From the IMG/VR virus record IMGVR_UViG_3300034101_005634, positions 1 to 51,459 of that record: 51,459 bases of DNA, one strand, 5' to 3'. The position numbers and the translations under genes are program-made. The stretch comes from a virus. A model generated the notes under the pieces. That model saw nothing but the letters and a program-made list of their open reading frames with translations, did no database searches and was not told where the DNA came from. Below, piece by piece: positions 9,931 to 49,323 of the stretch (positions are counted from its first letter, which is position 1; each line of letters opens with the position of its first letter).

Positions 9931-11071
9931 AAATATAAAAATGATCTAATTCACTCCAATATTCATCATTGTCTAATATGTAAGATATTTTGTCAACCAT
10001 TTTTTCTTTAATCAGCCAATGAGCTTTGCTTGCGTATATATCATCACCTTCAACTAAAATTTTATTAGAGAAGAATTTACAATTTTGGTGAGCATTTTTT
10101 AATTTATTTTTATTTATAGTATATAGATTTACTGGATAATCAAAATATTTATTTTTAATCAAACCCAAGTCGCCTTCGTTTTTTACTAAAATTTGAAATT
10201 CAATTTTATATCTTTTTAAAATATTAAAATATTCTTCAGGTATTGTATCAGAATCTTTATCAACTATTAAAGATAGTTTTTTGATATTATTTTTAATTTT
10301 TAATAGACCTTTGTGTTGTATTATTTTATCGGTAATTATGGCGACTTTATAATTTAAACAATATTGTAAGAATATTTCTTCATTAAATCCATAATCAGTT
10401 CTAATAAATATTATTTTATTTTTATCTAAATTATTATTAAATGATTTATCTGGGATAACCTCTATAACTCTCTCGTTAAATAGCGGACCAATATGAATCG
10501 TTTTGAAGTTAACTGTCTTTTTTTGTTTTAAAATTGTTAAAACAGCTTGAGCTATTTCTTCTGGGTTTATAGTGTTAATTTCTTCTTTGGGGTCTATTAA
10601 ATTAAGACATGGTTTATTTGACCATTTTGCAGAAATATCAATTTTTTCATTTTTTCTAGACCAGTATCCATTTGAGATAGATGGATATATGTTGCCAAAT
10701 AAATTAATAATAGGTATGTTTTTAGAGCTTGCATAATGAGAGTAAACATTGTCAACGCCAATATATAACAAAGATTTTGATAATACATATGCGTATTGTT
10801 TGAATGATAAATTAGATAAGCATTTATTTACATTACGAATCGGTTCCGAACTGCAATCTATCTGTATGATTTTTATATTTTTTTCAATTAAAAATGGTTT
10901 CAATAATTCTAAAACCATATTGTAATGTTTATAATTTTTTGATTGAGTTTTGTCTTCAGAGTAAATAACTATATATTTTTCATCACAAATTGGAAAATAG
11001 TGTTCTGAGATTATTGGTTTTGAAATATAAACACCTAAACTTTTTGCGTATTCTTCTAAAATGTGCGACAT
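9899..11071 (-). CDS. C-terminal half of a GT9 (heptosyltransferase-like) glycosyltransferase plus extra domain
   Basis: A 390-residue protein that starts like the middle of a GT9 enzyme: HILEEYAKSLGVYISKP, then the second Rossmann domain with KYIVIYSEDKTQSKNYKHY. The GT9 acceptor/donor region follows (LSKSLLYIGVDNVYSHYASS, PIINLFGNIYPS), corresponding to the D...H.A....P...LFG signature. Residues after about 190 form an additional region (VNFKTIHIGPLFNERVIEVI onward) of unknown function. The N-terminal GT9 half is encoded at the end of the preceding gene, which stops 2 nt before this ATG (TAA-TT-ATG). The two products may assemble as a split enzyme. The substrate is probably a surface sugar (inference). 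Confidence 0.65.
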   Translation of the reverse strand: MSHILEEYAKSLGVYISKPIISEHYFPICDEKYIVIYSEDKTQSKNYKHYNMVLELLKPFLIEKNIKIIQIDCSSEPIRNVNKCLSNLSFKQYAYVLSKSLLYIGVDNVYSHYASSKNIPIINLFGNIYPSISNGYWSRKNEKIDISAKWSNKPCLNLIDPKEEINTINPEEIAQAVLTILKQKKTVNFKTIHIGPLFNERVIEVIPDKSFNNNLDKNKIIFIRTDYGFNEEIFLQYCLNYKVAIITDKIIQHKGLLKIKNNIKKLSLIVDKDSDTIPEEYFNILKRYKIEFQILVKNEGDLGLIKNKYFDYPVNLYTINKNKLKNAHQNCKFFSNKILVEGDDIYASKAHWLIKEKMVDKISYILDNDEYWSELDHFYIYEQNKTKATN

Positions 11072-11073
11072 AA

Positions 11074-12984
11074 TTATTTATATAATGAAAATTGATTTTT
11101 AGTTAAACCATTATGAATATAAGAGATGTTTTTCTGTGTTGTTGTATGTGGATAAAACGCTAATTGAAAAAACCCATTAGAATCGCCAACACCCTCTAAC
11201 ATAAATTGATTTTCTAAAATGGGTGAGTATGGTAAACATTTATAAATAAATGGATTATCTTCTATGTATTCGAAATACTTTGGATTAGTAAATATATATA
11301 TGTTATATGTTGGATATTGTTTTTTTAAATTTTTTATTAAAGAATTAATCAATAATACATCTGTTTCTGATTGTGGAATAACTACGGCAATTCTTTTGTC
11401 TTCGTCTTCTTTTGAGAATAATGAAGAGAATTCTATTTTTTTGTTTTTTAAATTATTTTCTTTTGCTATTTTTATAAAATGATCTACCACCTGATCAGTA
11501 TTTATTTTTTCATTCGTTATTTTATTTCTCCATATCTTAAATGCATTGGAATTAAAATCTATATCTTCATTTAAAATATTTTTGTGAATGTCTATAATAA
11601 ATTCTTCAATAGACATCTGCCCTTTGGATGGTTTATAATATTCATTAAACTTTGTTTCTGAATTAGAGAAATCATAATTATGATCTGGCATGGAATCAAT
11701 AATTTCTTCCAATTTTCGACCTATTACTTCTACTGAAAAATTATCAATAACCCAATTTCTAGCTATGACTCCAATTCTATTTTTTTCTTCAGCGTTCATA
11801 TTGTAAACCTTTTCTAGGTTTAATGCTATGGATTCTGGAGATGTTGAAGCTTTGATAAATTGAGTTCCTGGTTCTCTATATTCACTCCATTCAAGCGGGA
11901 TACCACCGCTTTCTTCTGTGCAGTTCTCTTCGCCACAAGAATAATTAGTTACTAGTGTAATCAACTCCGTAAGTTTAGCTTCTTGAATTGGAATCTCTTG
12001 CCCTCCGCTTGTAAATGGGTGGCAATAGACATCCATTAAATTATAAATTTCATTTAATTGTTTTTCATTTACTCCGTGGGTAACATTAGTGGTATTTAAT
12101 GTGTTATTTTCTCCACATGAATCACAATTTTGTTGTTCTCCGCTAAATGGTTTTATTTTATATGTATTGCAATTATTACAAAAATAAGTAGTAATAATAT
12201 CATTGTGATCAATGCCCTTTTCATTTAAAAAATTAATAATATTCCACCCTTCTGACCAGCAGGTATGTAATAATAGTTTGCATTTGGATTCTGGGTTTTT
12301 GTTTTTAAAAATCTTAAATCCATCTAAGAGATTAGGAACTGACTTTCTTAATTGATTTCTGAACACAAAACCGACAATAAAACAATCTAAATCTATATTG
12401 TTTTGGAGTCTTAATTCATTTCTTTTTTGAGTATCTAATTTGTAAAAATTATGAATATCCACTGATCCGTGTAATGTTTTTATATGATCATAACCCATTT
12501 GTTGAAATGCTTTTTCTGCAAATGAAGACCAAACATAGTAGTTTTTTATTTTTGGCGCATACTCAATAGCTTGGGGTAATATTGGAAGACTGTCTAGCGT
12601 GGTCCAAACCATACAATTTATTTTATTCCACCAAGGTTTTGTATGAAATTGATTGAATGCCCAGATATCCTCTATACCAATATAGACATCTGGTTTTACT
12701 GCATTAATAATCTGGTCAATCATTAATCCTCCATAACTAGCAACCCTTTGTTCGTCTTGATTTAAATTCTGAATTGTTTCCATTGGCGGCAAAGTGCCAT
12801 AGCATTGCCACGGAGTTGAATTTGTGATTTGATTTTTTCTAAAATCATGTCCATTTGCAGCTTCAACAATATTATATTTATTTGTCGAATAAAGATATCT
12901 TAAGATATTTTTTTTATTTTTACCAAATCCTGTAAAAGCTTTACAAAAATTAGAATGTATTAATACTGTTTTTTTATTTTTCAT
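11074..12984 (-). CDS. GT4 glycosyltransferase with zinc-ribbon insert, fused to GT9 N-terminal half
   Basis: A 636-residue protein. Residues 1-470 are a GT-B fold GT4 enzyme with LIHSNFCKAFTGFGKN at the start and the donor-site segment YNLMDVYCHPFTSGGQEIPI with the following EAK helix. Between these sits a Cys insert, CNNC-x14-CDSC, a likely zinc ribbon. After about residue 525 a new Rossmann half starts (DKRIAVVIPQSETDVLLINS, YPTYNIYIFTNPKYFEYIED), which matches the N-terminal half of GT9 heptosyltransferases. It ends at NQFSLYK, and the next gene continues with the GT9 C-terminal half. A phage-encoded surface- or virion-glycan role is likely. The donor sugar is unknown. It overlaps the 12974-13444 gene by 11 bp. 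Confidence 0.75.
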   Translation of the reverse strand: MKNKKTVLIHSNFCKAFTGFGKNKKNILRYLYSTNKYNIVEAANGHDFRKNQITNSTPWQCYGTLPPMETIQNLNQDEQRVASYGGLMIDQIINAVKPDVYIGIEDIWAFNQFHTKPWWNKINCMVWTTLDSLPILPQAIEYAPKIKNYYVWSSFAEKAFQQMGYDHIKTLHGSVDIHNFYKLDTQKRNELRLQNNIDLDCFIVGFVFRNQLRKSVPNLLDGFKIFKNKNPESKCKLLLHTCWSEGWNIINFLNEKGIDHNDIITTYFCNNCNTYKIKPFSGEQQNCDSCGENNTLNTTNVTHGVNEKQLNEIYNLMDVYCHPFTSGGQEIPIQEAKLTELITLVTNYSCGEENCTEESGGIPLEWSEYREPGTQFIKASTSPESIALNLEKVYNMNAEEKNRIGVIARNWVIDNFSVEVIGRKLEEIIDSMPDHNYDFSNSETKFNEYYKPSKGQMSIEEFIIDIHKNILNEDIDFNSNAFKIWRNKITNEKINTDQVVDHFIKIAKENNLKNKKIEFSSLFSKEDEDKRIAVVIPQSETDVLLINSLIKNLKKQYPTYNIYIFTNPKYFEYIEDNPFIYKCLPYSPILENQFMLEGVGDSNGFFQLAFYPHTTTQKNISYIHNGLTKNQFSLYK

Positions 12985-14862: not shown

Positions 14863-17289
14863 TTACTCTATAACAAGGCCGTTGTCAATAACTTTTATTG
14901 AAACTTTTTTCAAATTAGCATTTTTAATAATAAATCTAGCAATTGGTACTTGTAGTTCCGAGCGAACTAAATCTTTAATATCTCTAGCATGGAGATTTTT
15001 GCTTTTAAATTTATTAAAAATAAAATTATCCACTCCTTTATTAAATACTAATTTAAAATTCTTATTGTTTAACTTTTCTTTGATTTTGTCAATTTCAAGA
15101 TGCACAATTGATACAAGCTGCTGATCTTTTAAATCATCAAATATTAATAACTCATTAATTCTAGAAATCAACTCTGGTTTTAGATGTTTTTTGACGGATT
15201 CTGTATAGGAATCATTATTATTTATTTCTTCTTGAATGAACCCAAGTGTTTTCTTTTTGGCTTCTTGATGTCCTATATTACTTGTCATCACGACAATAGA
15301 TTTAGTGAAATCAATTTTTCTATTAAGATTGTCATTAACATATCCCTCGTCCAATAAATGCAATAAAAGATTAAGTATTTGTGGATCACATTTTTCTATT
15401 TCGTCAAATAAGACTACGCAGTTAGGATTATTTCTAACGAATTCTGTTAAAAGTCCACCTTCTTCATATCCAATATAACCAGCATTAGCACCAATCAATT
15501 TACTAATACCCGTCTTCTCTTGGTATTCGCTCATATTGATTTGAATAAAGGCTTTCTTGTTGCCAAAGTAATGCTCTGCAATCTTCTTTGCTGTATAGGT
15601 TTTGCCAACGCTAGTTGCACCGACAAAGAATAAATTACACAGGGGTTTTTTGTCGTCATTCAAACCAATTTTAGCACACGCGAGTATATCAGAAATTTTA
15701 TCAATGTTCTTATCTTGACCAAAAATATCTTTTTTCATTTTTTGGTCAAAGTTAATAAATTCATCTGTTTCTGGACAGATCGATGATACTGGTAAATTTA
15801 TTTTGGAAGCAACTACCTCTAGAACATCTTTTTGTTTGATTTTAAATTTATTTTTCAGTACACTTTTATTAAAAAGGCTGATTTTATCTATGTATTCTTT
15901 TAATAAGGTTTCATAAAAAAGCTCTTCTTCTTTGTTTGATAAAATATAATCATCTGATAATTTAGATGAAATTTCATCTTGAATTTTTTGAATATCTGGA
16001 GGTAGTTTTAATTTTTTAACTTTAACTTTTGCTCCAACTTGATCAATAATATCAAAAGCCTTATCTGGAAATTTTTTATCTAAAATGTATTTATCGCACA
16101 AATCCACAATAAGATCTATGGTTTCTTGTTCGTACTTTACAAAATGAAAGTTTTCATAAAACTTAATAGAATTTTGAATGATTTTATTTGTCTGTTCTTT
16201 GTCTGGTTCATCAATTATAATTGAATCAAATCTCCTCTTCATTGCGGAGTCTTTTTCAAAGAATTTTTTATATTCACTTGTAGTTGTAGCTCCAATGCAT
16301 TTAATGGACCCTCTTGCGAGTTCTGGTTTAAGCATATTTGCTGCATCCAGAGATCCTTCTGCGCTTCCAGTGCCAATGATTGTGTGGATTTCATCAAAAA
16401 ATAAAATAATATTTTTAAATTCAGATGCAGCCTTAATAAGAGATTTAAATTTTTCTTCAAATTCCCCTCTGTATCTTGTGCCAGCAACCATTGATGCAAT
16501 ATCTACACAATGGATCTCAAAGCCAGATAGATTAGTTGGAACTTTATTTTGAACTATTCTTTGGGCAAGACCTTCTACAATAGCTGTTTTACCAACCCCA
16601 GCATCTCCAACTAAAATAGCATTGCTTTTTGTTTTTTTAGATATAGTTTCAATTAATTCATCTATCTCCTTATCTCTTCCAGAGATTGGGCTAATTGAAT
16701 TATTAATTACTTGATCATTTAAACATATACAATATTTTTGTAATGGTTCGTATTTTTTAGCTAATGATTTAGTATCTGAAATTGGTGTTTCGCTTGTATT
16801 AGTATCTGATATTGATTGTCCAGAATTATTGTCGATGATTAATGACTCAATCATTGATTTGAGTTTTTCTGTATCTACTCCAGATTTAAATAGATACTCA
16901 GAAAAGAATAAAGAGCATTCTAATATCGAGTATATAATGTGTTCTGAGCCAATATAATAATTATCATATATCTCTGAAAAAGATTTCGCTGCGACCATTA
17001 CATCATTGACTTCTTGATGCCAACTACCGCTATTTTTATTGGCTTTGAAAAAATTAGGTTTTTCCTTTTGGAGTTTTGTGAAAATTTCAATATAACTATC
17101 AATTGATAAGTTAATATCGTTGTTTTTTACGTTCCTCCAAAAAGAATCCGCAGCATTTGCTAAACACCCATAAAAAACATGAGCGTTGTTGATTAGAGTG
17201 TGCTCATTATCGCTGGCAAATTGTTTTGCAAGTTTGTATGCTTTTTTTGCTCTTGGAGTTAGATTAAAATCGTTAATTCCCATCATCAT
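14863..17289 (-). CDS. ClpC/ClpA-like AAA+ protein unfoldase
   Basis: An 808-residue double-ring AAA+ protein. The N-terminal Clp-N repeat domain spans about 1-150 (LTPRAKKAYKLAKQFASD, SEHIIYSILE). D1 has Walker A GDAGVGKT (228-235) and Walker B ILFFDEIHTIIG. A short ClpC-like middle region follows DIIDQVGAKVKVKKLKLPPD. D2 has Walker A GATSVGKT (557-564), Walker B VVLFDEIEKC and sensor 1 MTSNIG. After sensor 1 comes L682-G683-F684, at the place of the IGF/IGL loop that docks ClpP in ClpA, ClpC and ClpX. Sensor 2 is HARDIKD. Length and domains match ClpC (about 810). Three ATGs open the frame. The third (17283) sits 14 nt after a GTGTAA element and may be the real start. No ClpP gene is in the window, so host ClpP is the likely partner. 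Confidence 0.9.
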   Translation of the reverse strand: MMMGINDFNLTPRAKKAYKLAKQFASDNEHTLINNAHVFYGCLANAADSFWRNVKNNDINLSIDSYIEIFTKLQKEKPNFFKANKNSGSWHQEVNDVMVAAKSFSEIYDNYYIGSEHIIYSILECSLFFSEYLFKSGVDTEKLKSMIESLIIDNNSGQSISDTNTSETPISDTKSLAKKYEPLQKYCICLNDQVINNSISPISGRDKEIDELIETISKKTKSNAILVGDAGVGKTAIVEGLAQRIVQNKVPTNLSGFEIHCVDIASMVAGTRYRGEFEEKFKSLIKAASEFKNIILFFDEIHTIIGTGSAEGSLDAANMLKPELARGSIKCIGATTTSEYKKFFEKDSAMKRRFDSIIIDEPDKEQTNKIIQNSIKFYENFHFVKYEQETIDLIVDLCDKYILDKKFPDKAFDIIDQVGAKVKVKKLKLPPDIQKIQDEISSKLSDDYILSNKEEELFYETLLKEYIDKISLFNKSVLKNKFKIKQKDVLEVVASKINLPVSSICPETDEFINFDQKMKKDIFGQDKNIDKISDILACAKIGLNDDKKPLCNLFFVGATSVGKTYTAKKIAEHYFGNKKAFIQINMSEYQEKTGISKLIGANAGYIGYEEGGLLTEFVRNNPNCVVLFDEIEKCDPQILNLLLHLLDEGYVNDNLNRKIDFTKSIVVMTSNIGHQEAKKKTLGFIQEEINNNDSYTESVKKHLKPELISRINELLIFDDLKDQQLVSIVHLEIDKIKEKLNNKNFKLVFNKGVDNFIFNKFKSKNLHARDIKDLVRSELQVPIARFIIKNANLKKVSIKVIDNGLVIE

Positions 17290-28147: not shown

Positions 28148-28966
28148 CTATTTTATTTTATAATATTTATTAATAATTTCTGGGTGTTGATCCGCAAAAG
28201 GAAAGGTCTTACAACCAAATATATCTAATTCTTTGTTTGTTTGCCATTCCTTGAATAAAGAAATTTTATCAGGATTGTTATAAAATTTACTTTTAAATAA
28301 AACTTGCTCTTCAGAAACATAGCTATAATGATTTAATTTTAAGTTCATTTTTAATGTTTCATATTTTGAAATTATTTTCTCATATTCATTAAATAACATC
28401 TTAGGTGGTTCATGAGATATCCATTTACTATTTTTATTTATTTTAAATATTCTCATCCATGGTATTTTATTTGCCCATACTCCATCAGATCTTTCATCTA
28501 TGCAATAATCAAAACCACCCCAAAAGTGATTGGCAAAAAAATCAATTCTACTTGGTTTTTCTTGTTTTAAAATTTCAATAATTTTTTTAATGTCATTTTT
28601 TTTATAGAATTCATCAATATCAATTTGCCAAACATAGTCAGCTTCATAAATTGGAGAATTTTCATAAAACCAATAATTTAACATTGATGTTTTACCGTCC
28701 CAGAAATGCTCGGCTTCTTTTAAAAAAAAGTTTGATTTATTTTTTGCGAATTTTTTTATTACATCGACAGTATTGTCTGTTGATTTTCCATCTTTTGTAA
28801 AGAAAGATGTATCTCCATCCCAATAATGGTTTTTTGCTTTTGTAGCTCCTTCTGTAATAAAAACAAAATCCCCAATATCATTGACTTGCTCTAACCAGGC
28901 ATCCAACATTTTAGATGGAAGGCTATTTTGCGCATTAAATATAATTGATTGAACTGCAATTTTCAT
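28148..28966 (-). CDS. GT2/GT-A-like glycosyltransferase
   Basis: A 272-residue protein with a GT-A layout. It starts MKIAVQSIIFNAQNSLPSKM, has FVFITEGATKAKNHYWDGDT, then KSTDNTVDVIKKFAK, and the metal-binding motif in YVWQIDIDEFYKK (D-I-D) near residue 115. FANHFWGGFDYCIDERSDGV and a WISHEPPK segment follow. These fit the family-2-like enzymes often found in phage and surface-polysaccharide clusters. Its stop is 44 bp from the gmd start, the largest gap in this island. It overlaps the methyltransferase gene upstream by 4 bp. Donor and acceptor are not deducible. Confidence 0.75.
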   Translation of the reverse strand: MKIAVQSIIFNAQNSLPSKMLDAWLEQVNDIGDFVFITEGATKAKNHYWDGDTSFFTKDGKSTDNTVDVIKKFAKNKSNFFLKEAEHFWDGKTSMLNYWFYENSPIYEADYVWQIDIDEFYKKNDIKKIIEILKQEKPSRIDFFANHFWGGFDYCIDERSDGVWANKIPWMRIFKINKNSKWISHEPPKMLFNEYEKIISKYETLKMNLKLNHYSYVSEEQVLFKSKFYNNPDKISLFKEWQTNKELDIFGCKTFPFADQHPEIINKYYKIK

Positions 28967-29559
28967 TTTTCAAAAATACAATATCCATTTCTATGGTTTA
29001 AATTATCAACGATAATTTTATGTGTTTTCAATAAATCTTCTCTTGCCATAAAATTTTTTATTGTTGGAGGTCTTGTGTCATCTAAGAATACAATTCTTGA
29101 TCTATCTTTTAAAATCAAATATTCATTCCAACTAGAATATTCGCCTCCATCTAAAATTAGAAAATCTATTTCTTCTGGAATTTGATCTAAAACATTTTTA
29201 CAATTATTGATATTTTTTAGATCTTCATTATACCATGATAATTTCAAATTTTTATCATAATCAGTAAAAAATGAATCATCTAATAAGTTGAAATCTAATA
29301 GTTTATCACTAATGAATCCATTAATAATAGAAACTTCTTTTTTGTTTTTATAAAAATCAAAGGCAACATCATACATTTCTTTACATGTCTCTAAAGAAAT
29401 TAATTTTTTATTTGTGTTTTTAATTGCCTCATATATACAAAAAGTGGACCCCATCCCGTTCCATGTTCCTATTTCAATAATATTTTGGACATCTTCTCTT
29501 TCGCATATTTTTCTAATATGCAAGCCAGCCTCGTCCTTTAAATCTATTTGTCCAATCAT
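28963..29559 (-). CDS. SAM-dependent class I methyltransferase
   Basis: A 198-residue protein with motif I NIIEIGTWNGMGSTFCIYEA, the acidic end of strand 2 LISLETCKEM, and a late motif FLILDGGEYSSWNEYLILKD followed by SRIVFLDDTRPP. This is the pattern of small CmcI/TylF-like O- or N-methyltransferases that act on sugars. Its place between two glycosyltransferases suggests it methylates a sugar residue of the glycan made by this island (inference). It overlaps both neighbours by 4 bp (ATGA), so the genes are coupled. There is no membrane segment. Confidence 0.78.
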   Translation of the reverse strand: MIGQIDLKDEAGLHIRKICEREDVQNIIEIGTWNGMGSTFCIYEAIKNTNKKLISLETCKEMYDVAFDFYKNKKEVSIINGFISDKLLDFNLLDDSFFTDYDKNLKLSWYNEDLKNINNCKNVLDQIPEEIDFLILDGGEYSSWNEYLILKDRSRIVFLDDTRPPTIKNFMAREDLLKTHKIIVDNLNHRNGYCIFEK

Positions 29560-39355: not shown

Positions 39356-41953
39356 TTATGCTGTTACTGCCCAGCCTTTTAATAGGGCTGTTCCAGTTCT
39401 TAATTGTCTAAATGTTAAACTATTTGCACCTCCCGCAGCCATTTGTCGTGATACTGTGATGCTTACGTTGGGATTAATAGATACAACCTGTGTACGATAG
39501 CGTAAGGTTCCAGAACCGTTTGTCGTTAATGCTAGTGCTGGACCACCTAGAGTTGCTGCTACTTGAAATGTTCCAGCCGCAGCATTGACTACATAATAAA
39601 TTCTATTAGTAACAATACCAGTCGTTGTTACTATAGTTGCAAAAGAAACTTCATCTCCATTACTTAATCCATGACTTGCAAGGTTGACTAAATCACCTGC
39701 ATCGGTAAATGTTACTGCTCTTGTTGATGTAAGAGGGGAACCAGTACCAGTAATTTGCATACCCACAGCAATACCAGTGGTGTTTGCCATTGTTATTGTT
39801 GTGCTTCCAGCTGTTGTAGTTCCTGTAAGAGTTACAGGTGTCGGCGCTCCCCAATTGCTTGTTACTGTTATTGTTTGAGAAGCAGCACCTATTGTATCTA
39901 GATAATTGAATATAGATTCTAATTCTTCTTTTGATAATTTACAACCACTATAACTTATTGAATATTCTGAGCCATTCAATGCTGCTCTTGTAAGGTTTGG
40001 ACAGGTACTAAATATACCATTAAATTTATTAGCGTCTGTACCTGCTCCTGAAATTAATAACGGTACAGTTACAAGAGAAGTGCAACCACTAAACATACCA
40101 GACATATTAGTAACAACCCCTGTATTAAACAACGGTACAGTTGTAAGAGAAGTGCAAGTACTAAACATAAAAGACATACTAGTAACAACCCCTGTATTAA
40201 ACAACGGTACAGTTGTAAGAGAAGTACAAGCATTAAACATATCAGACATATTAGTAACAGCCCCTGTATTAAACAGTGGTACAGTTGTAAGAGAAGTACA
40301 ACTCTGAAACATAAAAGCCATATTTGTAACAGCTGTTGTATTGAATAGTGGTACAGTTGTAAGAGATCTGCAAGCACTAAACATACCACCCATATTAGTA
40401 ACAGCTGCTGTATTGAATAGTGGAACAGTTGTAAGAGAAGTACAACCATTAAACATACCATTTGGTGGAATAAAACCTCCCATAAGAGTAACAGCCCCTG
40501 TATTGAATAGTGGTACAGTTATAAGAGTAGTACAACCACTAAACATACTAACCATATTAGTAACAGCCCCTGTATTGAATAGTGGTACGGTTGTAAGAGA
40601 AGTACAACTCTGAAACATATTACTCATAGTAGTAACAGCCCCTGTATTGAATAGTGGAACACTTTTAAGAGTAGTACAACTACTAAACATACCACTCATA
40701 TTAGTAACAGCTGCTGTATTGAATAGTGGTACAGTTGTAAGAGAAGAGCAACCACTAAACATACTAGCCATATTAGTAACAGCTGCTGTATTGAATAGTG
40801 GTACAGTTGTAAGAGATCTGCAACTCTGAAACATAAAAGACATATTAGTAACAACCCCTGTATTAAACAACGGTACAGTTGTAAGAGAAGTGCAAGTACT
40901 AAACATACTAAACATATTAGTAACAGCTGTTGTATTGAATAGTGGTACGGTTGTAAGAGAAGTACAACTCTGAAACATACTACCCATAGTAGTAACAGCC
41001 CCTGTATTGAATAGTGGAACACTTTTAAGAGTAGTACAACCACTAAACATACTAACCATATTAGTAACAGCCCCTGTATTGAATAGTGGTACGGTTGTAA
41101 GAGAAGTACAACTCTGAAACATATTACTCATATTAGTAACAGCTGCTGTATTGAATAGTGGTACAGTTGTAAGAGAAGCGCAACTCTGAAACATACTAGT
41201 CATATCAGTAACAGCCCCTGTATTAAAAAGCAGTACAGTTGTAAGAGTAGTGCAACCAAAAAACATACTAGTCATATTAGTAATATTAGTAAGATCATTA
41301 AAAGATACATTTTTTAATGAAACTAAATTTGCAAATGAATTAGTTAAGTCAGTTAATAATCCTATATTGACTCCACTGAAACTAACTAAATTTTTACAAA
41401 AAGCCGAAGAAGCGGTTGCATTACCAAGAGTTAAACCTGTTAAACTTGGGCAAGATAAAGCTATTTCTAATATAGGAGAAGAATCGGGAAATGTAGATCC
41501 AGCTTGTGCATACTTTTGGTTAAAGTTTACACTTGTTATATTTTGACCAGCTTGAGGAGTAATGACTACAACTGCCATTTTATAACCATCACTTGTAACG
41601 GTGGCATTTAAATCTGGGTCGGTATAAGAGTATTCATGTTGAGCCTTAACACCAGATGCAACATTTTCTGTTACACCATCACCCCAATCAACTGTATATG
41701 CTCCAGATATTGTAAAAGCGAGAAAGTTAGATTGTTGCGGAAACACTGGCATCAACAAAGCTATTTTTTGCTCTGAAGATATTATAGTCGGCATTGTCAA
41801 CCAATCAGCAGGACGAACCCACGGAGACGGTGTGGCTGGAGTTGCTGCTGCTGTTGGTTGTTTAATTCTAAGTCGATCAAATCTATCCTTTTTAAAAAAA
41901 GAAGACTTACGTGAGACTAACGGTCCAACTTTATTTCCGTAACGAATACTCAT
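39356..41953 (-). CDS. Large fibre/adhesin with about 17 BspA-like (DUF285) repeats
   Basis: An 865-residue protein. The N-terminal part (to about 160) has a PKD-type motif (YTVDWGDGVTENVA, then HEYSYTD). From about residue 200 to 640 it is built of 24-residue repeats with the core MFQSCTSLTTVPLFNTGAVT-NMS, the DUF285/BspA-like leucine-rich type known from surface adhesins of Mycoplasma, Bacteroidetes and protists. The variable places are the two residues between F and C and the triplet after C. One unit has a 6-residue insertion (GGFIPPNGMF). The C-terminus (SQTITVTSNWG, TAGSTTITMANTTGIAVGMQ) is an Ig-like or phage-tail-type module. It likely is a receptor-binding or adhesin fibre. Intragenic recombination could change repeat number. 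Confidence 0.8.
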   Translation of the reverse strand: MSIRYGNKVGPLVSRKSSFFKKDRFDRLRIKQPTAAATPATPSPWVRPADWLTMPTIISSEQKIALLMPVFPQQSNFLAFTISGAYTVDWGDGVTENVASGVKAQHEYSYTDPDLNATVTSDGYKMAVVVITPQAGQNITSVNFNQKYAQAGSTFPDSSPILEIALSCPSLTGLTLGNATASSAFCKNLVSFSGVNIGLLTDLTNSFANLVSLKNVSFNDLTNITNMTSMFFGCTTLTTVLLFNTGAVTDMTSMFQSCASLTTVPLFNTAAVTNMSNMFQSCTSLTTVPLFNTGAVTNMVSMFSGCTTLKSVPLFNTGAVTTMGSMFQSCTSLTTVPLFNTTAVTNMFSMFSTCTSLTTVPLFNTGVVTNMSFMFQSCRSLTTVPLFNTAAVTNMASMFSGCSSLTTVPLFNTAAVTNMSGMFSSCTTLKSVPLFNTGAVTTMSNMFQSCTSLTTVPLFNTGAVTNMVSMFSGCTTLITVPLFNTGAVTLMGGFIPPNGMFNGCTSLTTVPLFNTAAVTNMGGMFSACRSLTTVPLFNTTAVTNMAFMFQSCTSLTTVPLFNTGAVTNMSDMFNACTSLTTVPLFNTGVVTSMSFMFSTCTSLTTVPLFNTGVVTNMSGMFSGCTSLVTVPLLISGAGTDANKFNGIFSTCPNLTRAALNGSEYSISYSGCKLSKEELESIFNYLDTIGAASQTITVTSNWGAPTPVTLTGTTTAGSTTITMANTTGIAVGMQITGTGSPLTSTRAVTFTDAGDLVNLASHGLSNGDEVSFATIVTTTGIVTNRIYYVVNAAAGTFQVAATLGGPALALTTNGSGTLRYRTQVVSINPNVSITVSRQMAAGGANSLTFRQLRTGTALLKGWAVTA
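40052..41290. repeat. 72-bp tandem repeat array in the DUF285 fibre gene
   Basis: About 17 imperfect 72-bp units, each encoding 24 residues on the minus strand with the constant core (ACAGTTGTAAGAGAAG on the plus strand) and variable segments. Variants recur in different combinations (Q-S, S-G, S-T, N-A, N-G or S-A before the Cys), a pattern expected from duplication and gene conversion. Because 72 is a multiple of three, the opposite strand also stays open over long stretches. Confidence 0.85.
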
Positions 41954-42336: not shown

Positions 42337-44274
42337 TTATAAAAAGATTGAAAGACCTATGATTGTATTTGAGTTTTCTACTAAAGAGTCTATTTGAGTT
42401 TGTAATTCACCACTTATTCCAGTTACATAAGTTTGAGTAGCATAAGAGGATAAATCGACTCCAGTAATAAACCCACTAGGATTAGAATTTGCGTAAAATT
42501 GTCCAGTTTGGCTATTTAGTACATAAGATCCTGTCGCACTGTTTAGTGTAGAAATTTGTGTTTGTAAACCTCCACTTATTCCAGTTACTTCTTCATAAGA
42601 AGCAATAGTATCCAAGGTGCTTAAATCACTTGCTCTAGTTGCAATGCCAAATTTAAATTTGTCAGAATGATCAAAACCAATAATTGCGCCAGAATCATTA
42701 ATCCCAGTAAGTCCAGATCCAGTAATGAAGAAAATACCACCATCAACTGCCCCACCAGTTAAGTTAAGCAGCAGATAATTACTCGCAACATTTGTGTTAG
42801 TAGTATTTATTATTGTTTCAAGACCTGTAACATATAAATTATTAATGTATACTTTATCGTGGAAAGTTTTATCTCCAAGGATTGTTTCTCCGCCTGTTGT
42901 ATTTACATATCTAGACTCAGATTCGTCTTTTGTATAGTAGTTACCAGAGAATGATAGATCGACTCCAGTAATATAACCTGAAGGGTTGGTTCTTGGGTAG
43001 TATGAACCAGTTTGATTGTTTAAAGTAGTTATTTGAGTTTGTAAACTACCACTAATTCCTGTTACATAAGTTTGTGTTGTTGCTTCTCCACTTAAAAGAA
43101 TCCCTGTTGAATTAACGGTTGGTCTAGTACCACTAATGTTTAACCCACTTCTAAATAAAGCAGTTCCATTAACATCTAAAGTCGCTGTTGGGGTAATGGT
43201 ATTTACACCTACTCTATTATTAGAAGTATTGACAAATAAATCACCACCATTAACTGTTAAATTATTAGAAAAAGTTTTTGCCCCATTAATGGTTTGATTA
43301 CCAGTATTATAAACTAAATTAGGAGCTTCAACTATTGAAGTAAATCTTCCAGTAGTGCCAGTGAGTGCATAATGCATTCTAGTTGGAGCATATACTTGAA
43401 AAGATTTAGTTAACGCTTCTAAGGTAACACCTAAATCACTTACTTCTATATAATTAACAGCATCGAAATTAGCTATAGCGACATAACTATCTAATTGATT
43501 AGGTTGCCAAAGCGCACCGTCAAAATAAGAATTATTAACTGAAAGTGTTCCACTAATATTTAATGCGGTATCATGTATAGCCCCAGTACCAATAACATTT
43601 AAACCACCACTTATTGTTTGATTACCAGTAGTAAAGACTAAATTATTAATTCCAGTAATATATCCACTTGGATTTGCTCTTGGGTAAAAAGAACCGCTTT
43701 GAGAATTTAAAGTCGTAATTTGCCCTTGAAGGTGGCCGCTGACACCTGTTACATAATTTTGGGTAGCGTATGAAGAAAGATCGACACCAGTTATAAAACC
43801 ACTAGGATTAAAATTTGGATAGAATTCTCCAGTTTGAGAGTTGGTAATAAAATCGCCAGTTTCTGTTTTTAAAACGTAGTCTCCAGTTTCATTATTTAAG
43901 CTATTGATTTGATTTTGTAAATCTCCGCTAATACCAGTTGTATAATCAATTGTTGCGTAATTAGACAAATCAACACCAGTAATGAAACCAGAAGGATTTG
44001 AATTAGGATAGAATTGTCCAGTTTCACCTGGACGCACAATTTCACCAGTAACTAAATTAAAATATTGTCCAGAATTAAGGTGATAATATTGATTACCAGA
44101 ACCACCCTGCAAGCTGCCAAGTAAATTATGATTAATCTCATCGCTTCCGCCACTTATATGAGTTACTGAATGTGTAGGAAAACTTATACCAGCGCCTATA
44201 ATTAAAGTTTCATCAACACCAACATTTATTGTTGTCGATGGCGGTTGAATTACGGATATGGTTATATCACTCAT
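42337..44274 (-). CDS. Tail fibre protein with trimeric-type repeats (paralogue A)
   Basis: A 645-residue fibre. The N-terminus has ISFPTHSVTHISGGSDEINH, and several recurring shaft blocks of the type FYPNSNPSGFITGVDLSSYA-TQNYVTGVSGHLQ follow. Others are TLDVNGTALFRSGLNISGT and a larger domain, NNLYVTGLETIINTTNTNVA to KFGIATRASDLSTLDTIAS, which is shared nearly word for word with the fibre at 47080-49323. The repeated G-I-S-G-x-L-Q-x-Q-I heptad-like helices suggest a trimeric coiled shaft. No chaperone or peptidase S74 domain is seen at the C-terminus. It begins on the stop of the 44271 gene (4-bp overlap). Confidence 0.8.
   Translation of the reverse strand: MSDITISVIQPPSTTINVGVDETLIIGAGISFPTHSVTHISGGSDEINHNLLGSLQGGSGNQYYHLNSGQYFNLVTGEIVRPGETGQFYPNSNPSGFITGVDLSNYATIDYTTGISGDLQNQINSLNNETGDYVLKTETGDFITNSQTGEFYPNFNPSGFITGVDLSSYATQNYVTGVSGHLQGQITTLNSQSGSFYPRANPSGYITGINNLVFTTGNQTISGGLNVIGTGAIHDTALNISGTLSVNNSYFDGALWQPNQLDSYVAIANFDAVNYIEVSDLGVTLEALTKSFQVYAPTRMHYALTGTTGRFTSIVEAPNLVYNTGNQTINGAKTFSNNLTVNGGDLFVNTSNNRVGVNTITPTATLDVNGTALFRSGLNISGTRPTVNSTGILLSGEATTQTYVTGISGSLQTQITTLNNQTGSYYPRTNPSGYITGVDLSFSGNYYTKDESESRYVNTTGGETILGDKTFHDKVYINNLYVTGLETIINTTNTNVASNYLLLNLTGGAVDGGIFFITGSGLTGINDSGAIIGFDHSDKFKFGIATRASDLSTLDTIASYEEVTGISGGLQTQISTLNSATGSYVLNSQTGQFYANSNPSGFITGVDLSSYATQTYVTGISGELQTQIDSLVENSNTIIGLSIFL
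42595..42850 (-). repeat. Fibre domain duplicated at 48385-48640 (copy 1)
   Basis: Encodes NLYVTG-ETI-TNTNV-SNYLLLN-TGGA-DGG-FF-TGSGLTG-NDSGAIIGFD, then KFGI..R..DL..L-TIAS. The same segment with few changes is in the second fibre gene. The constant residues over about 85 positions show recent duplication or recombination. Confidence 0.75.
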
Positions 44275-44603
44275 TTTGTAGAGCTTTTTATAATATAAAC
44301 TGGTCCAGATAACAATTTATCTGGACATTGACCAGACCTATCGGCATATAAATCCCAATAAGATGGTGCTAAATCAAGACCCAATGTTTGTAATGCATCT
44401 AAGCTTATTTTTGCTATGCCGCTTGACTCATTAAGCACTTCAGTTTTAAAAATAGCTTGTAAAGCATCGTCAAAATCTCTACGAATTTGACCAGTAAGAG
44501 ACACACCGCTTAAATTATATATATCTCCGCCTTTTTGTATTGTAAGCGTTAAATCATAACAAGCTCTTTGTTCAATAGTTATTCCAGTATTTGCAGCACT
44601 CAT
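44271..44603 (-). CDS. Baseplate/fibre-partner protein, BppU-like N-terminus
   Basis: I chose ATG 44603 (MSAANTGITIEQRACYDLTL); the longer start at 44606 would be TTG. The 110-residue product has the pattern of small phage proteins that sit beside fibres: EQRACYDLTLTIQKGGDIYN-LSGVSLTGQIRRDFDDALQA and FKTEVLNESSGIAKISLDAL. The Y-D-L/T-G-Q-I-R arrangement recalls BppU-type and other upper-baseplate N-domains. It ends YIIKSSTK. A GTGTAA element begins 15 nt before the ATG. It is 9 bp after the SET gene and overlaps the fibre gene by 4 bp. Confidence 0.6.
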   Translation of the reverse strand: MSAANTGITIEQRACYDLTLTIQKGGDIYNLSGVSLTGQIRRDFDDALQAIFKTEVLNESSGIAKISLDALQTLGLDLAPSYWDLYADRSGQCPDKLLSGPVYIIKSSTK

Positions 44604-44612
44604 CAAAGATTA

Positions 44613-45020
44613 TTACACCCAATCTATCTCTTCTGGAAGATATTTACACGTCAGTTCTTCACCAATTTCAATATTTTTAATGGCATAATACGTATCTGTC
44701 TCTAAATGATGATATAAATTAGGTTCTTCAGAATGATTTACATAATAAGATGGGCTAATTTTATTCACTGGGCAATCTATCCAAAATCCATGTTCATTGT
44801 GATTGCACATTTGTTTAATGTAGCGACTTATATTTTGCTCAATTCCTTCAATCTCAAACCATTGAATAAATTTATTCGTATTCGTGGCGAATACAATATC
44901 TTCTTTTTCAATTTTACTCATTGCAAAAACACCAACTCCAGCATTATTAATTTTACTTGGGGCAAGTTTTACAATAGTCTTATCAAAGAGTTCCTGTAGT
45001 ATTTGATTTCTGAGGTTCAT
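44613..45020 (-). CDS. Viral SET-domain protein (putative lysine methyltransferase)
   Basis: A 135-residue, stand-alone SET domain, about as short as the viral histone methyltransferase vSET of chlorella virus PBCV-1. Residues 28-33 give GVGVFA, followed by I42 at the motif-I strand. Residues 95-101 are N-H-S-E-E-P-N, the defining NHSxxPN of SET motif III. Residues 117-127 are IEIGEELTCKY, motif IV with the catalytic-type Tyr127. The pseudo-knot parts needed for S-adenosylmethionine binding are thus present. Post-SET cysteines are absent. It lies within fibre genes and overlaps the unknown 44983 gene by 38 bp. Its target could be a virion, host ribosomal or other protein lysine. Confidence 0.78.
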   Translation of the reverse strand: MNLRNQILQELFDKTIVKLAPSKINNAGVGVFAMSKIEKEDIVFATNTNKFIQWFEIEGIEQNISRYIKQMCNHNEHGFWIDCPVNKISPSYYVNHSEEPNLYHHLETDTYYAIKNIEIGEELTCKYLPEEIDWV

Positions 45021-45636
45021 TTGTAAATTCTGTCATATAACTATAATCTGTATATTGCGTCCTTTTATTTTCGACGCTATATACAGTTAAATCTATTTTA
45101 TATCCTGGGTTTTTATCAATTGGGACATCCACCCAAGCATCATCATGCCATATAATTCTGTTGTTAGGGTAAGCGTAAAAATTACCATTATCCATTTTAA
45201 ACAGGTGGGCGCATTTATGTTCGGGTGTTTCAGAGAAATTAGTATCTAGAATTGATTTATTTTCCCACCCCCAATCCAAAGTGAACATATATTCACCCCA
45301 TTCTTTTTTGCCAAGTGGATTAATAAGCTTCGCTTTCAATCCCTTGAGTCGCGCTCTTACTTGCACATCAACATATGGGCTAAAACAATCCCAATACATT
45401 GCGTGTTCCAATGGAGCTGGATCGCATTCTTTCCAGCAAAATGCAGTAATTGGTCTGCGCGTCCAGTTGACACCATTGGTTAAAAAAGCCTCAAAAAGCG
45501 GAACTCTTTTTTCGATTGAAGCAACAGAATGAACATCGCATGAAGTATACTCCCCATGTCCTTTCTCATGATTAAAAAGATACTCATTTCTTATTAAACA
45601 AGTAATAGTAGGAATATTGTGATTTAAGTAAGACAT
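44983..45636 (-). CDS. Unknown Cys/Trp/His-rich protein
   Basis: A 217-residue protein I cannot assign. It has a distinctive conserved-looking block GEYTSCDVHSVASIEKRVPL-FEAFLTNGVNWTRRPITAFC, then CFSPYVDVQVRARLKGLKAK and LINPLGKKEWGEYMFTLDWG. The C-terminal part (NRIIWHDDAWVDVPIDKNPG) is followed by KIDLTVYSVENKRTQ. The density of Cys, His, Trp and Asp looks enzymatic, perhaps metal-binding. It lies between the UPF0489-like gene (no gap) and the SET gene (38-bp overlap), so the three are made together. Confidence 0.6.
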   Translation of the reverse strand: MSYLNHNIPTITCLIRNEYLFNHEKGHGEYTSCDVHSVASIEKRVPLFEAFLTNGVNWTRRPITAFCWKECDPAPLEHAMYWDCFSPYVDVQVRARLKGLKAKLINPLGKKEWGEYMFTLDWGWENKSILDTNFSETPEHKCAHLFKMDNGNFYAYPNNRIIWHDDAWVDVPIDKNPGYKIDLTVYSVENKRTQYTDYSYMTEFTNEPQKSNTTGTL

Positions 45637-46467
45637 TTATTTTAAATACTCATTAAGGCTCTTTTTAAGATTGTCCAAAATAAATTGTACATTTTCTTTT
45701 TTTGTATATCCTGAGCTTTCGGATTTACACAAAACAATACCAAGGCATTTTTTTATGTCAAAATTTTGTTTTAAAAACGTCAACACTAAATTTATTTTTT
45801 TTAATATTTCATTTTTTGAAAAAACTAATTCATCAAAATTAATATCAAACGCTTCATTAAAAAAATCTATTTTTTCCAATCTATTTAAATGACACATAAA
45901 AGATAAAAAATCTTTTTCGTCTTTAATTTTTGAAAAGTCAATTAACATTTTTTCAAAATCATTGCTTGGAAAGCTTTTTTTTAATTGATCAAGCTCGTTT
46001 TTAAATGGATTTGAGCAACTAAAATAATCACAATCAATAGATAAAAACCATTTTTCATCATTAATTTTAAATTTATTTAATTTCTCTTCAGAAACAACTT
46101 GAAAAGAAAATTTCTTGCTATTTATTGGTGCATTTTTGCCATACACTCCATTTAAATAACAAAGTTTATGGTTCAAATCAAATACTAATGTATTATTTTT
46201 ATCTAACCATAAACTAGATTTATAAAAACCGTCTTCAAATTCATTTAAATTTTTATTATTTTTGATCCATAGATATTTTTTTAAAAAACCCCCATAAACT
46301 AAATAAGTAATAAAAGAACCAATAGTTGGCTCCTTCCCTAATTCGTAAACCCCCAAATCACTATGTGAATCTACATTCACAAAAATAAAATCATTTTTGC
46401 TTTTTTTTGACGCTTCTTTAATTAAATCAACAATTTCATTATGCTCTTCTATAACTTCTATTTTCAT
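45637..46467 (-). CDS. UPF0489/arginase-like metallohydrolase
   Basis: A 276-residue protein with the UPF0489 layout. An E-E-H-N-E start (residues 7-11) is followed by FIFVNVDSHSDLGVYELGKE with D33-x-H35-x-D37. Then come YLVYGGFLKKYLWIKNN and the second metal motif in WFLSIDCDYFSCSNPF, with D145 and D147. These are the ureohydrolase-type metal ligands (H, DxHxD, DxD). UPF0489 includes the peptide arginases that turn arginine to ornithine in some ribosomal peptides, so action on a protein arginine is possible (family knowledge, then inference). The C-terminal half is helical and lysine-rich. It is the first gene of the three-gene island with 44983 and the SET gene. Confidence 0.68.
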   Translation of the reverse strand: MKIEVIEEHNEIVDLIKEASKKSKNDFIFVNVDSHSDLGVYELGKEPTIGSFITYLVYGGFLKKYLWIKNNKNLNEFEDGFYKSSLWLDKNNTLVFDLNHKLCYLNGVYGKNAPINSKKFSFQVVSEEKLNKFKINDEKWFLSIDCDYFSCSNPFKNELDQLKKSFPSNDFEKMLIDFSKIKDEKDFLSFMCHLNRLEKIDFFNEAFDINFDELVFSKNEILKKINLVLTFLKQNFDIKKCLGIVLCKSESSGYTKKENVQFILDNLKKSLNEYLK

Positions 46468-46832: not shown

Positions 46833-47078
46833 TTATAAATAATAAATATGATTTATTGGTTGATTGTTTGATATATTATCACTAGATAAATCGCCCCAAA
46901 AAACAGTTGATGTATCAGTTGGATTGGAAAAGTTTAAAGCAAACGATGTTAATGTTGCTGGTTGAGAATCAAAAGTCCAAAGCGTTTCACCAAATTGCGG
47001 CCAAACAATTATTCCATCCAAATATATTCGATCAACATTTTGGCTACCTATTTTAACATTATTTGCGGTATTTAACAT
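46833..47078 (-). CDS. Small protein with PKD-like WGD motif
   Basis: I chose ATG 47078 (MLNTANNVKIGSQNVDRIYL), 1 nt after the fibre stop; the longer start at 47087 would be TTG. The 81-residue product has KIGSQNVDRIYLDGIIVWPQ, a pattern seen at the N-terminus of many phage tail proteins. It is followed by one strand set and STVFWGDLSSDN with NHIYYL at the end. The W-G-D loop and final HxY strand match a truncated PKD/Ig-like fold, as in the proteins at 6534 and 39356. It may be a trimmed relative of those larger proteins or a real small virion protein. Confidence 0.55.
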   Translation of the reverse strand: MLNTANNVKIGSQNVDRIYLDGIIVWPQFGETLWTFDSQPATLTSFALNFSNPTDTSTVFWGDLSSDNISNNQPINHIYYL

Positions 47079-47079
47079 A

Positions 47080-49323
47080 TTATCCAATTATAATATAAAG
47101 AGTGGTTGGATTTGGTGTTAATGAATTATACTGACTCTGAGTTAATCTCGTGATTGATGCGACCCCTCCAGAATTTACAACAAATCCCGAAGGATTAGAA
47201 TTAGCGTAAAATTGACCAGTTTGACCTGTTAACACATAATCGCCAGTAGCATTATTAAGATTTGTGATTTGTGTTTGTAATTCACCGCTTATTCCAGTTG
47301 CATAGCCTTGTGTTACCGCCTCTCCGCTTAAAAGGACTCCAGTTGTGTTAACTGTTGGACGAGATTTGAAATTTGTTAGACCAGATATATTTATAGAGCC
47401 ACTAAAAGCATCTATATAAATATTATCATCACTTACTGATATGTTATTAGTATAATAACCTCCCATGCCAACAACTCCACCTGAAGGAGCTATCCAAGAT
47501 TGACCATCAAAATAAGAATTATTAACTGAAAGAGTTCCGCTGATATTTAAATCATTAGCGAATGTTTTTACTCCACTTATAGTTTGATTGCCAGTAGTAG
47601 CAACACCATTTATTCTCGTAACATCAATTGGATCTAATTCACTATGGTAAAAATTACCAGCAATACGCTGCGGTTTCCAAACTACACCATCAGAAGAAAT
47701 AAAAATTAAACTTGTCCCCAAAGGTAATGAACTACCACTAAATGTATATAAAGTCTGTTCTAGATTAGGATCATAAGAATTTCCTGTCCAAACGCGCTGT
47801 TTTATAGCAATAGGTCTGGTAAGTGAACTAATATTAATCCTTAATAAGCCACCATTACGTACTAAAGAATCGCTACCATAACCTCCAGTTGGTAAGAATA
47901 CTACACCAGTTCCAGAAGTCATATAACTTGTAATTCCTAAATTTATATTGTAACCAGTTTGAACATATCCAGTTGCATTTGTATTATCAAGGAATATATT
48001 ACTATTAATGGTTGAATCGAAAATTGTATTATTATTTTTATCGTATAAAATACCTGAAATTGTTTTATTTCCTTGGACTGTCTGATTACCAGTAAGCATA
48101 ACAGCTGTAGTATCTAAGGCTATTTCACCACTCTTAGATGGGAAAGCGTAGGAATAAGAATCTGGGTTTTCGCTACCACCATAAATCTTGGTAATTTTTC
48201 CATATTGATATTGTGTGGTATTTGGACTTGAATAATTCGTCTCATCAGCGCTAATAAAAGAAAAATTAGCATAACCCAAACTCGACCTTCTTACTAATGT
48301 GTTTGGTAAACTATAATCAGTAGACGCTATATCAAAAACAAAACCACTTAATCCACTAATTGAATCGTTTACAAATTTTGTTGAGGCGATTGTTTCTAAA
48401 TTATTAAGATCTTGAGATCTACTTCCAATACCAAATTTAAAATTCTCAAAATCATCAAAACCAATAATAGCGCCAGAATCATTTACGCCTGTTAATCCAG
48501 ATCCAGTAACAAAGAAAACGCCACCATCTGTAGCGCCACCAGTTACATTTAATAATAAATAATTACTAGAAACATTTGTATTTGTGCTACTTACAATTGT
48601 TTCCGAGCCAGTAACATAAAGATTCCTAATATAAACATCTTCTTCAAATTTTTTATAACCACTAATGACTTGATCACCAGTAGTATAAACTATATTTGAT
48701 TTTATTTTTTCTAAATCTGCAACTGGGTTTAAAAATATACCATAAGATTTTGTTCCAGTAGCGCTTTGTGGGTAGGTTTCAAGAAATATTGGAGTTGTTT
48801 CTGTTGGATTTGTTGGCGAGCTAGTTAACCAATCAACGTTTTCATAATTAACTGTATAAGAATTACCACTTGACTGTCTTAATATCCATGATATTTTTTT
48901 GAATCCAGTTTCTGGTGATCCAGTTGGAAAACCTAAATCTAAAAACACATGATTTTGCAATGTTAAATCTTTTACTAAAACTAAATTTTTATTAGAATAA
49001 TCTCTATTAACAACGTCATCAATATTAACTGGAGTTTTAAGTGATTTTAATTCTAAAAATGATTTTACTCCACTTATGGTTTGATCTCCAGTATTATAAA
49101 CAATATTGCTTCCATATAAATCTCCAGATGCTTTTATGTATCCAGAAGCTAATATATCACCAGCGACATTTAATTTTGCAGAAGGATCTAAAGTACCTAT
49201 GCCCACATTATTTGTATCATTATCAACAAATAATGTATCGCTGTGTACTAAAAAAGATTCAGTTACAGATAGGTTTCCTGTAATTGTTACATCATTATAA
49301 ATTGTAAGTGGTCCTGTTGCCAT
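47080..49323 (-). CDS. Tail fibre protein with trimeric-type repeats (paralogue B)
   Basis: A 747-residue fibre. It starts MATGPLTIYNDVTITGNLSV, then VDNDTNNVGIGTLDPSAKLN-VAGD, the head-shaft block of many fibres that end in S74 chaperones. Repeats of YNTGDQTISGVKSF and NISGTLSVNNSYFDG follow. The domain NLYVTGSETIVSSTNTNVSS is shared with the 42337-44274 fibre. The C-terminal GISGELQTQITNLNNATGDY-like heptads and TLYIIIG close it. No S74 catalytic motif is recognised. It is 4 bp after the YadA-like gene. The two paralogues could exchange segments. Confidence 0.8.
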   Translation of the reverse strand: MATGPLTIYNDVTITGNLSVTESFLVHSDTLFVDNDTNNVGIGTLDPSAKLNVAGDILASGYIKASGDLYGSNIVYNTGDQTISGVKSFLELKSLKTPVNIDDVVNRDYSNKNLVLVKDLTLQNHVFLDLGFPTGSPETGFKKISWILRQSSGNSYTVNYENVDWLTSSPTNPTETTPIFLETYPQSATGTKSYGIFLNPVADLEKIKSNIVYTTGDQVISGYKKFEEDVYIRNLYVTGSETIVSSTNTNVSSNYLLLNVTGGATDGGVFFVTGSGLTGVNDSGAIIGFDDFENFKFGIGSRSQDLNNLETIASTKFVNDSISGLSGFVFDIASTDYSLPNTLVRRSSLGYANFSFISADETNYSSPNTTQYQYGKITKIYGGSENPDSYSYAFPSKSGEIALDTTAVMLTGNQTVQGNKTISGILYDKNNNTIFDSTINSNIFLDNTNATGYVQTGYNINLGITSYMTSGTGVVFLPTGGYGSDSLVRNGGLLRINISSLTRPIAIKQRVWTGNSYDPNLEQTLYTFSGSSLPLGTSLIFISSDGVVWKPQRIAGNFYHSELDPIDVTRINGVATTGNQTISGVKTFANDLNISGTLSVNNSYFDGQSWIAPSGGVVGMGGYYTNNISVSDDNIYIDAFSGSINISGLTNFKSRPTVNTTGVLLSGEAVTQGYATGISGELQTQITNLNNATGDYVLTGQTGQFYANSNPSGFVVNSGGVASITRLTQSQYNSLTPNPTTLYIIIG
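48385..48640 (-). repeat. Fibre domain duplicated at 42595-42850 (copy 2)
   Basis: Counterpart of the segment at 42595-42850, encoding NLYVTGSETIVSSTNTNVSS to DLNNLETIAS. The conserved positions (GGVFFVTGSGLTGVNDSGAI) are nearly identical to copy 1. Confidence 0.75.

Follow-up and report, generated by a model that had tools for sequence, protein, structure and literature searches.

A SET domain gene paired with the T4-GC 171 family in aquatic phages, and a peptide-arginase-like gene preceding the pair in one virus record

Gene organization of the locus

The DNA analysed here, referred to below as the window, is a complete stretch of 51,459 bases from the virus record IMGVR_UViG_3300034101_005634 of IMG/VR and belongs to a tailed phage whose tail tip is lambda J-like and which codes for a DNA polymerase of its own, a UvsX-like recombinase and a ribonucleotide reductase. 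Three genes of its minus strand are of concern, coding in the order of reading for a UPF0489 protein of 276 amino acids (aa), a middle protein of 217 aa and a SET domain protein of 135 aa. The stop codon of the UPF0489 gene directly abuts the ATG of the middle gene (gap of 0 nucleotides, nt), and the middle gene overlaps the SET gene by 38 nt. Genes for fibres are situated on both sides (42337-44274 and 47080-49323), each scoring above the cut-off for PF18338 (BppL_N). The main features are as follows:

45637..46467, minus strand: UPF0489 gene, peptide-arginase-like, 276 aa (PF12640, 23 bits; NF052474, E 5e-18; predicted fold with Z 20.1 to OspR, 8brp)
44983..45636, minus strand: middle gene, family T4-GC 171 (GC171) / phrog_3704, 217 aa (phrog_3704, E 3.2e-50; 112 phage records; 40-member alignment)
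44613..45020, minus strand: SET gene, predicted minimal SET domain lysine methyltransferase, 135 aa (PF00856, E 7e-11; profile matches to the SET domains of KMT2C/D and EZH2)
44983..45020, minus strand: overlap of the middle gene and the SET gene, 38 nt, recurring in homologous loci
44718..44738, minus strand: SET motif NHSEEPN (N95-N101), with N95, H96, S97, P100 and N101 invariant in 23/23 proteins
44640..44642, minus strand: SET Tyr127, invariant in 23/23 proteins

A first-pass annotation, made from the letters alone, had described three contiguous genes with fibres on both sides, and this organization was borne out by the open reading frames (ORFs), the abutting and overlapping gene ends and the PF18338 matches. 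Its naming of a SET methyltransferase likewise stands, PF00856 being above its cut-off with the catalytic motifs kept; the middle gene, called unknown there, turned out to be a member of the large known phage family phrog_3704.

The SET protein

The match to PF00856 (E 7e-11) reaches 42.9 bits, above the cut-off of 22.4, and the profile of the SET alignment finds the SET domains of KMT2C, KMT2D and EZH2, i.e. of histone lysine methyltransferases. The catalytic motifs GVG (GxG) and NHSxxPN (NHxxxPN) are kept, together with Tyr127—presumably the catalytic tyrosine—in all 23 aligned SET proteins. The SET family methylates lysine using S-adenosylmethionine (SAM). The nearest known viral case is the vSET of the chlorovirus PBCV-1 (PMC7019647), like the phage protein a virus-coded minimal SET methyltransferase; vSET, however, comes from a virus infecting eukaryotes and methylates Lys27 of histone H3, whereas the phage SET is tied to GC171 and has no known histone target. 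In the open literature, a coverage that leaves aside subscription papers and preprints, no paper joining a SET domain with a cyanophage was found, and the combination of SET domain, bacteriophage and tail fiber returned papers that were unrelated as far as their titles go.

Recurrence of the SET–GC171 pair

The linkage was followed in a set of 359 GC171 loci, consisting of the window, 8 phage records and 350 viral-contig loci (the duplicates L001 and L091-L094, loci being designated here by L numbers, were removed before the count). SET adjoins GC171 in 38 of them, 34 times downstream and four times upstream, and the two genes overlap in every pair listed, by 1 to 113 nt. Dereplication at 95%, with members shorter than 190 aa removed, yielded 168 representatives, in which SET occupies 24/332 slots at positions ±1 of GC171 and 0/1290 slots at ±2 to ±8, it being understood that loci fetched through GC171 bias such distance counts toward near genes. 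The state of SET on the GC171 tree requires at least nine changes, and the association has thus been made or broken repeatedly.

When four SET queries were run by tblastn against INPHARED, eight records with SET were obtained (two of them both phage S-B05), seven of which have it overlapping GC171; the eighth is a 636-kb uncultured phage considered further below. When 50 records were searched over their full length with the Pfam model of SET, a SET gene was found once in each of the three included as known SET–GC171 positives and in none (0/47) of the other GC171 records. SET and GC171 are a recurring, overlapping pair in aquatic phages.

Concerning the surroundings of the pair, it lies ahead of baseplate (wedge) genes in myophages of Synechococcus and follows DNA polymerase A in the pelagiphage-type contig L125, so that the adjacency to fibres is a feature of a lineage. 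Many loci from freshwater continue into phrog_1084 and a fibre gene (neighbour clusters c3, in 27/90 loci, and c2, in 28/90), for which reason fibres may be a target of SET and of UPF0489 alike. The corresponding neighbour in the window lies outside the module:

44271..44606, minus strand: phrog_1084 protein following SET, identified by its phrog match, with a weak match to the L-shaped tail fibre assembly family phrog_3304; the same cluster adjoins SET in many freshwater loci

The middle gene: family, labels and predicted fold

The middle gene has no Pfam match and is recognized by phrog_3704. By tblastn it was found in the 112 phage records mentioned above, mostly of Synechococcus and Prochlorococcus phages, but also of phages of Pelagibacter, Flavobacterium and Aphanizomenon; in cyanophage records the gene is designated T4-GC 171, and the window thus holds a member of the T4-GC 171 / phrog_3704 family of cyanophages and pelagiphages. 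Full scans of IMG/VR with five divergent queries confirmed 399, at least 598, 31, 259 and at least 599 stretches, the best 80 being kept in four scans and the scan with 31 stretches representing 29 distinct loci.

Members of GC171 have been deposited as PurM, phosphoribosylaminoimidazole (AIR) synthetase or ferredoxin, and these labels in records and papers are what speaks for taking the protein as annotated, with SET as an incidental neighbour. Such an explanation is nevertheless to be regarded as extremely improbable. Neither an AIRS nor an AIRS_C domain was detected in five divergent members (the window, L005, L007, L008 and L009), and in P-SSM2 the true AIR synthase is the gene next to GC171, PSSM2_176, with AIRS at 1.4e-22 and AIRS_C at 1.8e-24, an adjacency that may explain how the PurM label has spread. 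A ferredoxin has four conserved cluster-binding cysteines, whereas in the alignment of 40 GC171 members C84 is the sole cysteine to come close to invariance; the predicted structure of GC171 is, moreover, all-beta.

In print, as far as the available parts of the papers go, T4-GC 171 is treated as purM with its SET partner unmentioned. The gene purM is said to occur in 45% of 82 pelagiphage genomes (PMC9599517), and since HTVC023P and HTVC027P are among the tblastn matches, the purM of that survey would probably be the GC171 family. The 'PurM' ORF051 of cyanophage CL131 (PMC6293099) corresponds by its label to the CL131 match for GC171; viral purM is also discussed in PMC9983427 and PMC7678222, where the family meant may be either GC171 or true purM.

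The AlphaFold2 model of GC171 (40 sequences; m679b4f949fe5), with a mean predicted local distance difference test score (pLDDT) of 76.2 and a predicted template modelling score (pTM) of 0.72, is all-beta and comprises two SH3-like barrels:

45427..45636, minus strand: first predicted SH3-like barrel, about residues 1-70 (strands 3-62 of the AlphaFold2 model; boundaries approximate)
45127..45369, minus strand: second predicted SH3-like barrel, about residues 90-170, the region aligning best to Tudor domains

The best matches of the model in the PDB are Tudor domains, namely those of SETDB1 (Foldseek E 0.019, probability 0.98), Spindlin, 53BP1, PHF1 and UHRF1, all weak, with none at E < 0.001. 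By VIA the best Z was 7.1 (root-mean-square deviation, rmsd, 3.0 over 75 residues), a value below 8 that according to the tool may mean only a common arrangement. Although Tudor and tandem Tudor domains such as those of SETDB1, 53BP1 and PHF1 head the lists of both Foldseek and VIA, no more than a common barrel arrangement may be claimed; the matches being statistically weak, a double SH3-like barrel is what is claimed here, and the Tudor likeness is taken as a lead. The GC171 profile found no PDB sequence at E <= 1, and in BFVD the model had three matches at E <= 0.001, all of them unnamed or uncharacterised.

The UPF0489 protein

The UPF0489 protein scores E 1.2e-4 and 23 bits with PF12640, for which the cut-off is 27 bits, and E 5e-18 and 65.6 bits with NF052474, the peptide arginase model of the FlmR/OhkR family, for which it is 350 bits. 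With both cut-offs unreached, the protein was filed as divergent and peptide-arginase-like and not as a member of FlmR/OhkR, and its identity was then supported by motifs, profile and predicted fold. The motifs are:

46435..46449, minus strand: EEHNE (E7, E8, H9, E11), invariant in 21/21 rows and equal to the EEH(N/H)E of PMC10028609
46357..46371, minus strand: DSHSD (D33, H35, D37), the DXHXD of peptide arginases, ligands invariant in 21/21 rows
46015..46044, minus strand: LSIDCDYFSC (D145, D147), invariant in 21/21 rows, to be compared with the LDIDLDYFSC of peptide arginases

A motif scan of genome contigs provided 80 loci, from which 21 reading frames passed the motif filter; one (L451) was dropped for want of homology, another (L430) was kept without a BLAST row, and the 20 frames together with the window make up the 21 rows of the alignment. 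E7, E8, H9, E11, D33, H35, D37, D145 and D147 are invariant in all the rows, H9, D33, H35, D37, D145 and D147 being the metal ligands. It should be pointed out that the search itself demanded E-E-H-(N/H)-E and D-x-H-x-D; for the bacterial rows, it is therefore D145/D147 alone that provide an independent test.

The crystallised peptide arginase OspR is described with the motifs EEH(N/H)EAF, DXHXD and LDIDLDYFSC (PMC10028609), and a conversion of peptide arginine to ornithine has been demonstrated for BipC of the UPF0489 superfamily (PMC12707348). With OspR and BipC, which belong to the landornamide and biphenomycin pathways, the phage protein has in common the metal motifs EEH(N/H)E, DXHXD and (L)xIDxDYFSC, a full-length alignment and the predicted fold; it differs from them in being coded by a phage, in its identity of 20-26% to the bacterial set and in that no precursor of a ribosomally synthesized and post-translationally modified peptide (RiPP) was recognised nearby. 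The profile of the alignment found OspR (8brp) in the PDB at E 2.7e-100, whereas phmmer with the window sequence alone gave only rows at chance level, and the alignment profile was thus needed. The predicted structure, a ureohydrolase alpha-beta-alpha fold with a pLDDT of 73.6, matches OspR 8brp with Z 20.1 over 223 residues (rmsd 4.5), the next family, the agmatinases, reaching Z 11.4; the homologues having served as its input alignment, this match counts as support and not as independent proof. The protein is termed divergent and peptide-arginase-like here; arginine-to-ornithine chemistry is plausible for it, probably with a protein as its substrate. A possible conversion of this kind had already been suggested in the first-pass annotation, and both the metal-binding signature and the predicted fold of peptide arginases lend support to it.

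The same annotation had taken the three genes for one system, a view that their distribution does not support, the pair of SET and GC171 alone being recurrent. In a PF12640 scan of the 47 other records holding the middle gene, an intact UPF0489 gene was found in none, the single match, in PV340850, having three internal stops. The co-occurrence of SET with UPF0489 that was to be looked for in other phages did not emerge either: there was no UPF0489 match by tblastn in the phage or plasmid collections, scans of viral and genome contigs with peptide patterns confirmed none, and the nine stretches from a motif scan of viral contigs contained no UPF0489 gene on inspection, one of them (L373) lacking a motif-bearing frame. 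The motif scan recovers the window itself, but it misses variants, since both EEH(N/H)E and a GAA codon at its start are needed for a match. Judged from these comparisons, UPF0489 is a lineage-specific addition, peculiar to the present phage in the searches made. In the open literature, of the coverage given above, the query for peptide arginase and phage returned, to judge by the listing, only reviews on lanthipeptides.

Other neighbours of GC171 and further observations

Using profiles seeded from the neighbours of GC171, a 2-oxoglutarate (2OG)-Fe(II) oxygenase was found beside GC171 in 21 loci at position -1 and in one at +1, out of 79 such ORFs. Six of these enzymes exceed the Pfam cut-off (L207, L216, L258, L165, L161 and L002) and three fall below it (L167, L173 and L169). 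Ten representatives on the GC171 tree were scored positive, with 10 changes needed. The slot -1 is occupied in 7/165 cases against 22/1457 elsewhere (p 0.022), a post hoc comparison in which seeds taken from the tested slot favour that slot; the enzymes being common in GC171 phages and the enrichment weak, the linkage is a lead only. In addition, a PF04377 (ATE_C) protein occupies position +1 in three loci. The pattern of swappable modifying enzymes around GC171 is likewise a lead and not a result. Further neighbours include genes for transaldolase, AdoMet (S-adenosylmethionine) decarboxylase and sulfotransferase-like proteins and, by eye, a superoxide-dismutase-like gene.

Several observations may be added in their own right. 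The arginyl-tRNA-protein transferase C-terminal domain abutting GC171 in L053 (6642-7406) scores 31.6 bits with PF04377 (cut-off 25), the same cluster being present in two more loci. In L002 (PV340850), the gene at 8627-9172, directly after SET and GC171, is deposited as DNA endonuclease V, but Pfam places it among the 2OG-Fe(II) oxygenases (PF13640, 29.1 bits); the window contains no PF13640 enzyme. Upstream of UPF0489, the window has an ORF of 84 aa (46833-47087) that by eye looks like the beginning of the BspA-like (DUF285) fibre (39356-41953) and is perhaps a fibre remnant. Elsewhere the window has several genes resembling those of glycosyltransferases and one resembling that of a methyltransferase (9899-12984 and 28148-29559) as well as a phage-coded ATP-dependent protease of 808 aa (14863-17289; phrog_4871, E 6e-200). 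PADLOC gave no match indicating a defence role for the five proteins tested, and a promoter scan, the signal of which equalled that of shuffled sequence, was not used.

Functional interpretation

The explanation proposed here, to which a little better than an even chance is given, is a two-gene SET–GC171 module of lysine methylation with a lineage-specific arginase added. The SET protein would be a minimal SAM-dependent methyltransferase acting on protein lysine, and GC171, the double SH3-like barrel from the overlapping frame, would most likely serve as its substrate, as an adaptor presenting the target or as a binder of the methylated product. The divergent peptide arginase, added 5' in the same gene string, would most likely form ornithine by hydrolysis of the arginines of some protein. 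The gene order, the overlap, the catalytic motifs, the recurrence of the pair and the non-recurrence of the arginase are read from the sequences; what is inferred is the catalytic activity, a physical complex and whichever protein is acted upon, be it a fibre, GC171 or one of the host.

Several points weigh against this proposal. The distance counts carry the retrieval bias already described, and most GC171 phages are without SET (24/168 representatives with it and 0/47 whole records), from which it follows that GC171 has a role without SET. Conversely, the 636-kb uncultured phage LR756504 has SET (L495, 6001-6408) but GC171 nowhere in the whole record. No SET-specific lysine could be established in GC171 from the representatives: Lys191 is present in 21/22 SET-positive and 14/26 SET-negative ones, but the p of 0.001 ignores relatedness and the tree leaves no more than five independent pairs. 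As for the arginase, its adjacency to the pair is a single case, and its scores remain under both model cut-offs.

A nearly even chance has to be conceded to the three genes being in part chance neighbours in a hotspot of accessory genes, where UPF0489 would be unrelated cargo beside SET–GC171 and might have a host peptide as its target or no target at all. The gene was found just once, metabolic genes (transaldolase, AdoMet decarboxylase) abut GC171 elsewhere, and it is AT-rich (G + C content 22.7%, window 30.3%), although one gene has a still lower G + C content and that of UPF0489 at third codon positions (GC3) is ordinary, owing to which base composition was not used as a sign of transfer. 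On the other hand, UPF0489 is part of the same string, with a gap of 0 nt to GC171 and all its motifs kept, so that it is probably under selection. It is unlikely, by comparison, that GC171 itself, having its own role in infection, is the substrate of SET, the 2OG-Fe(II) oxygenase, the arginyltransferase-like enzyme or the arginase. Such a role would fit a constant GC171 with a varying neighbour (SET, unrelated 2OG-Fe(II) oxygenases at -1, ATE_C at +1 and UPF0489 in the window), and the gene overlap suggests equal dosage; yet no lysine marks the SET-positive GC171 proteins beyond relatedness, most GC171 genes have no modifying enzyme as a neighbour and the enrichment of 2OG enzymes at -1 is weak. 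Equally doubtful is an editing of the flanking fibre proteins, the lysines and arginines of which would be modified with an effect on receptor contact or protease resistance: the fibres that flank the genes, and the many freshwater loci continuing into phrog_1084 and a fibre, are in its favour, but the positions before baseplate wedge genes in Synechococcus myophages and after DNA polymerase in L125, together with the lack of recurrence of UPF0489, are not.

The SET–GC171 module can be extended to a broader and still somewhat less probable picture, in which GC171 would be a tandem Tudor-like reader of methyl-lysine or an adaptor, around which aquatic phages swap modifying enzymes (SET, 2OG-Fe(II) oxygenase, arginyltransferase-like protein, peptide arginase). 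This would amount to a writer–reader system of bacterial viruses, with two writers in the present phage and the first phage-borne peptide arginase in these searches.

With regard to the GC171 family, its PurM and ferredoxin labels are without domain support, and the frequency given for purM among the metabolic genes of phages may be too high; published surveys assign to purine synthesis a gene that ranks among the commonest in aquatic phages, although it lacks every feature of AIR synthase tested. The pairing with SET offers the first concrete functional lead for this family, and cultured Synechococcus phages would allow lysine methylation of phage proteins to be tested. If a phage does carry a peptide arginase, the editing of arginine to ornithine would extend beyond peptide natural products.
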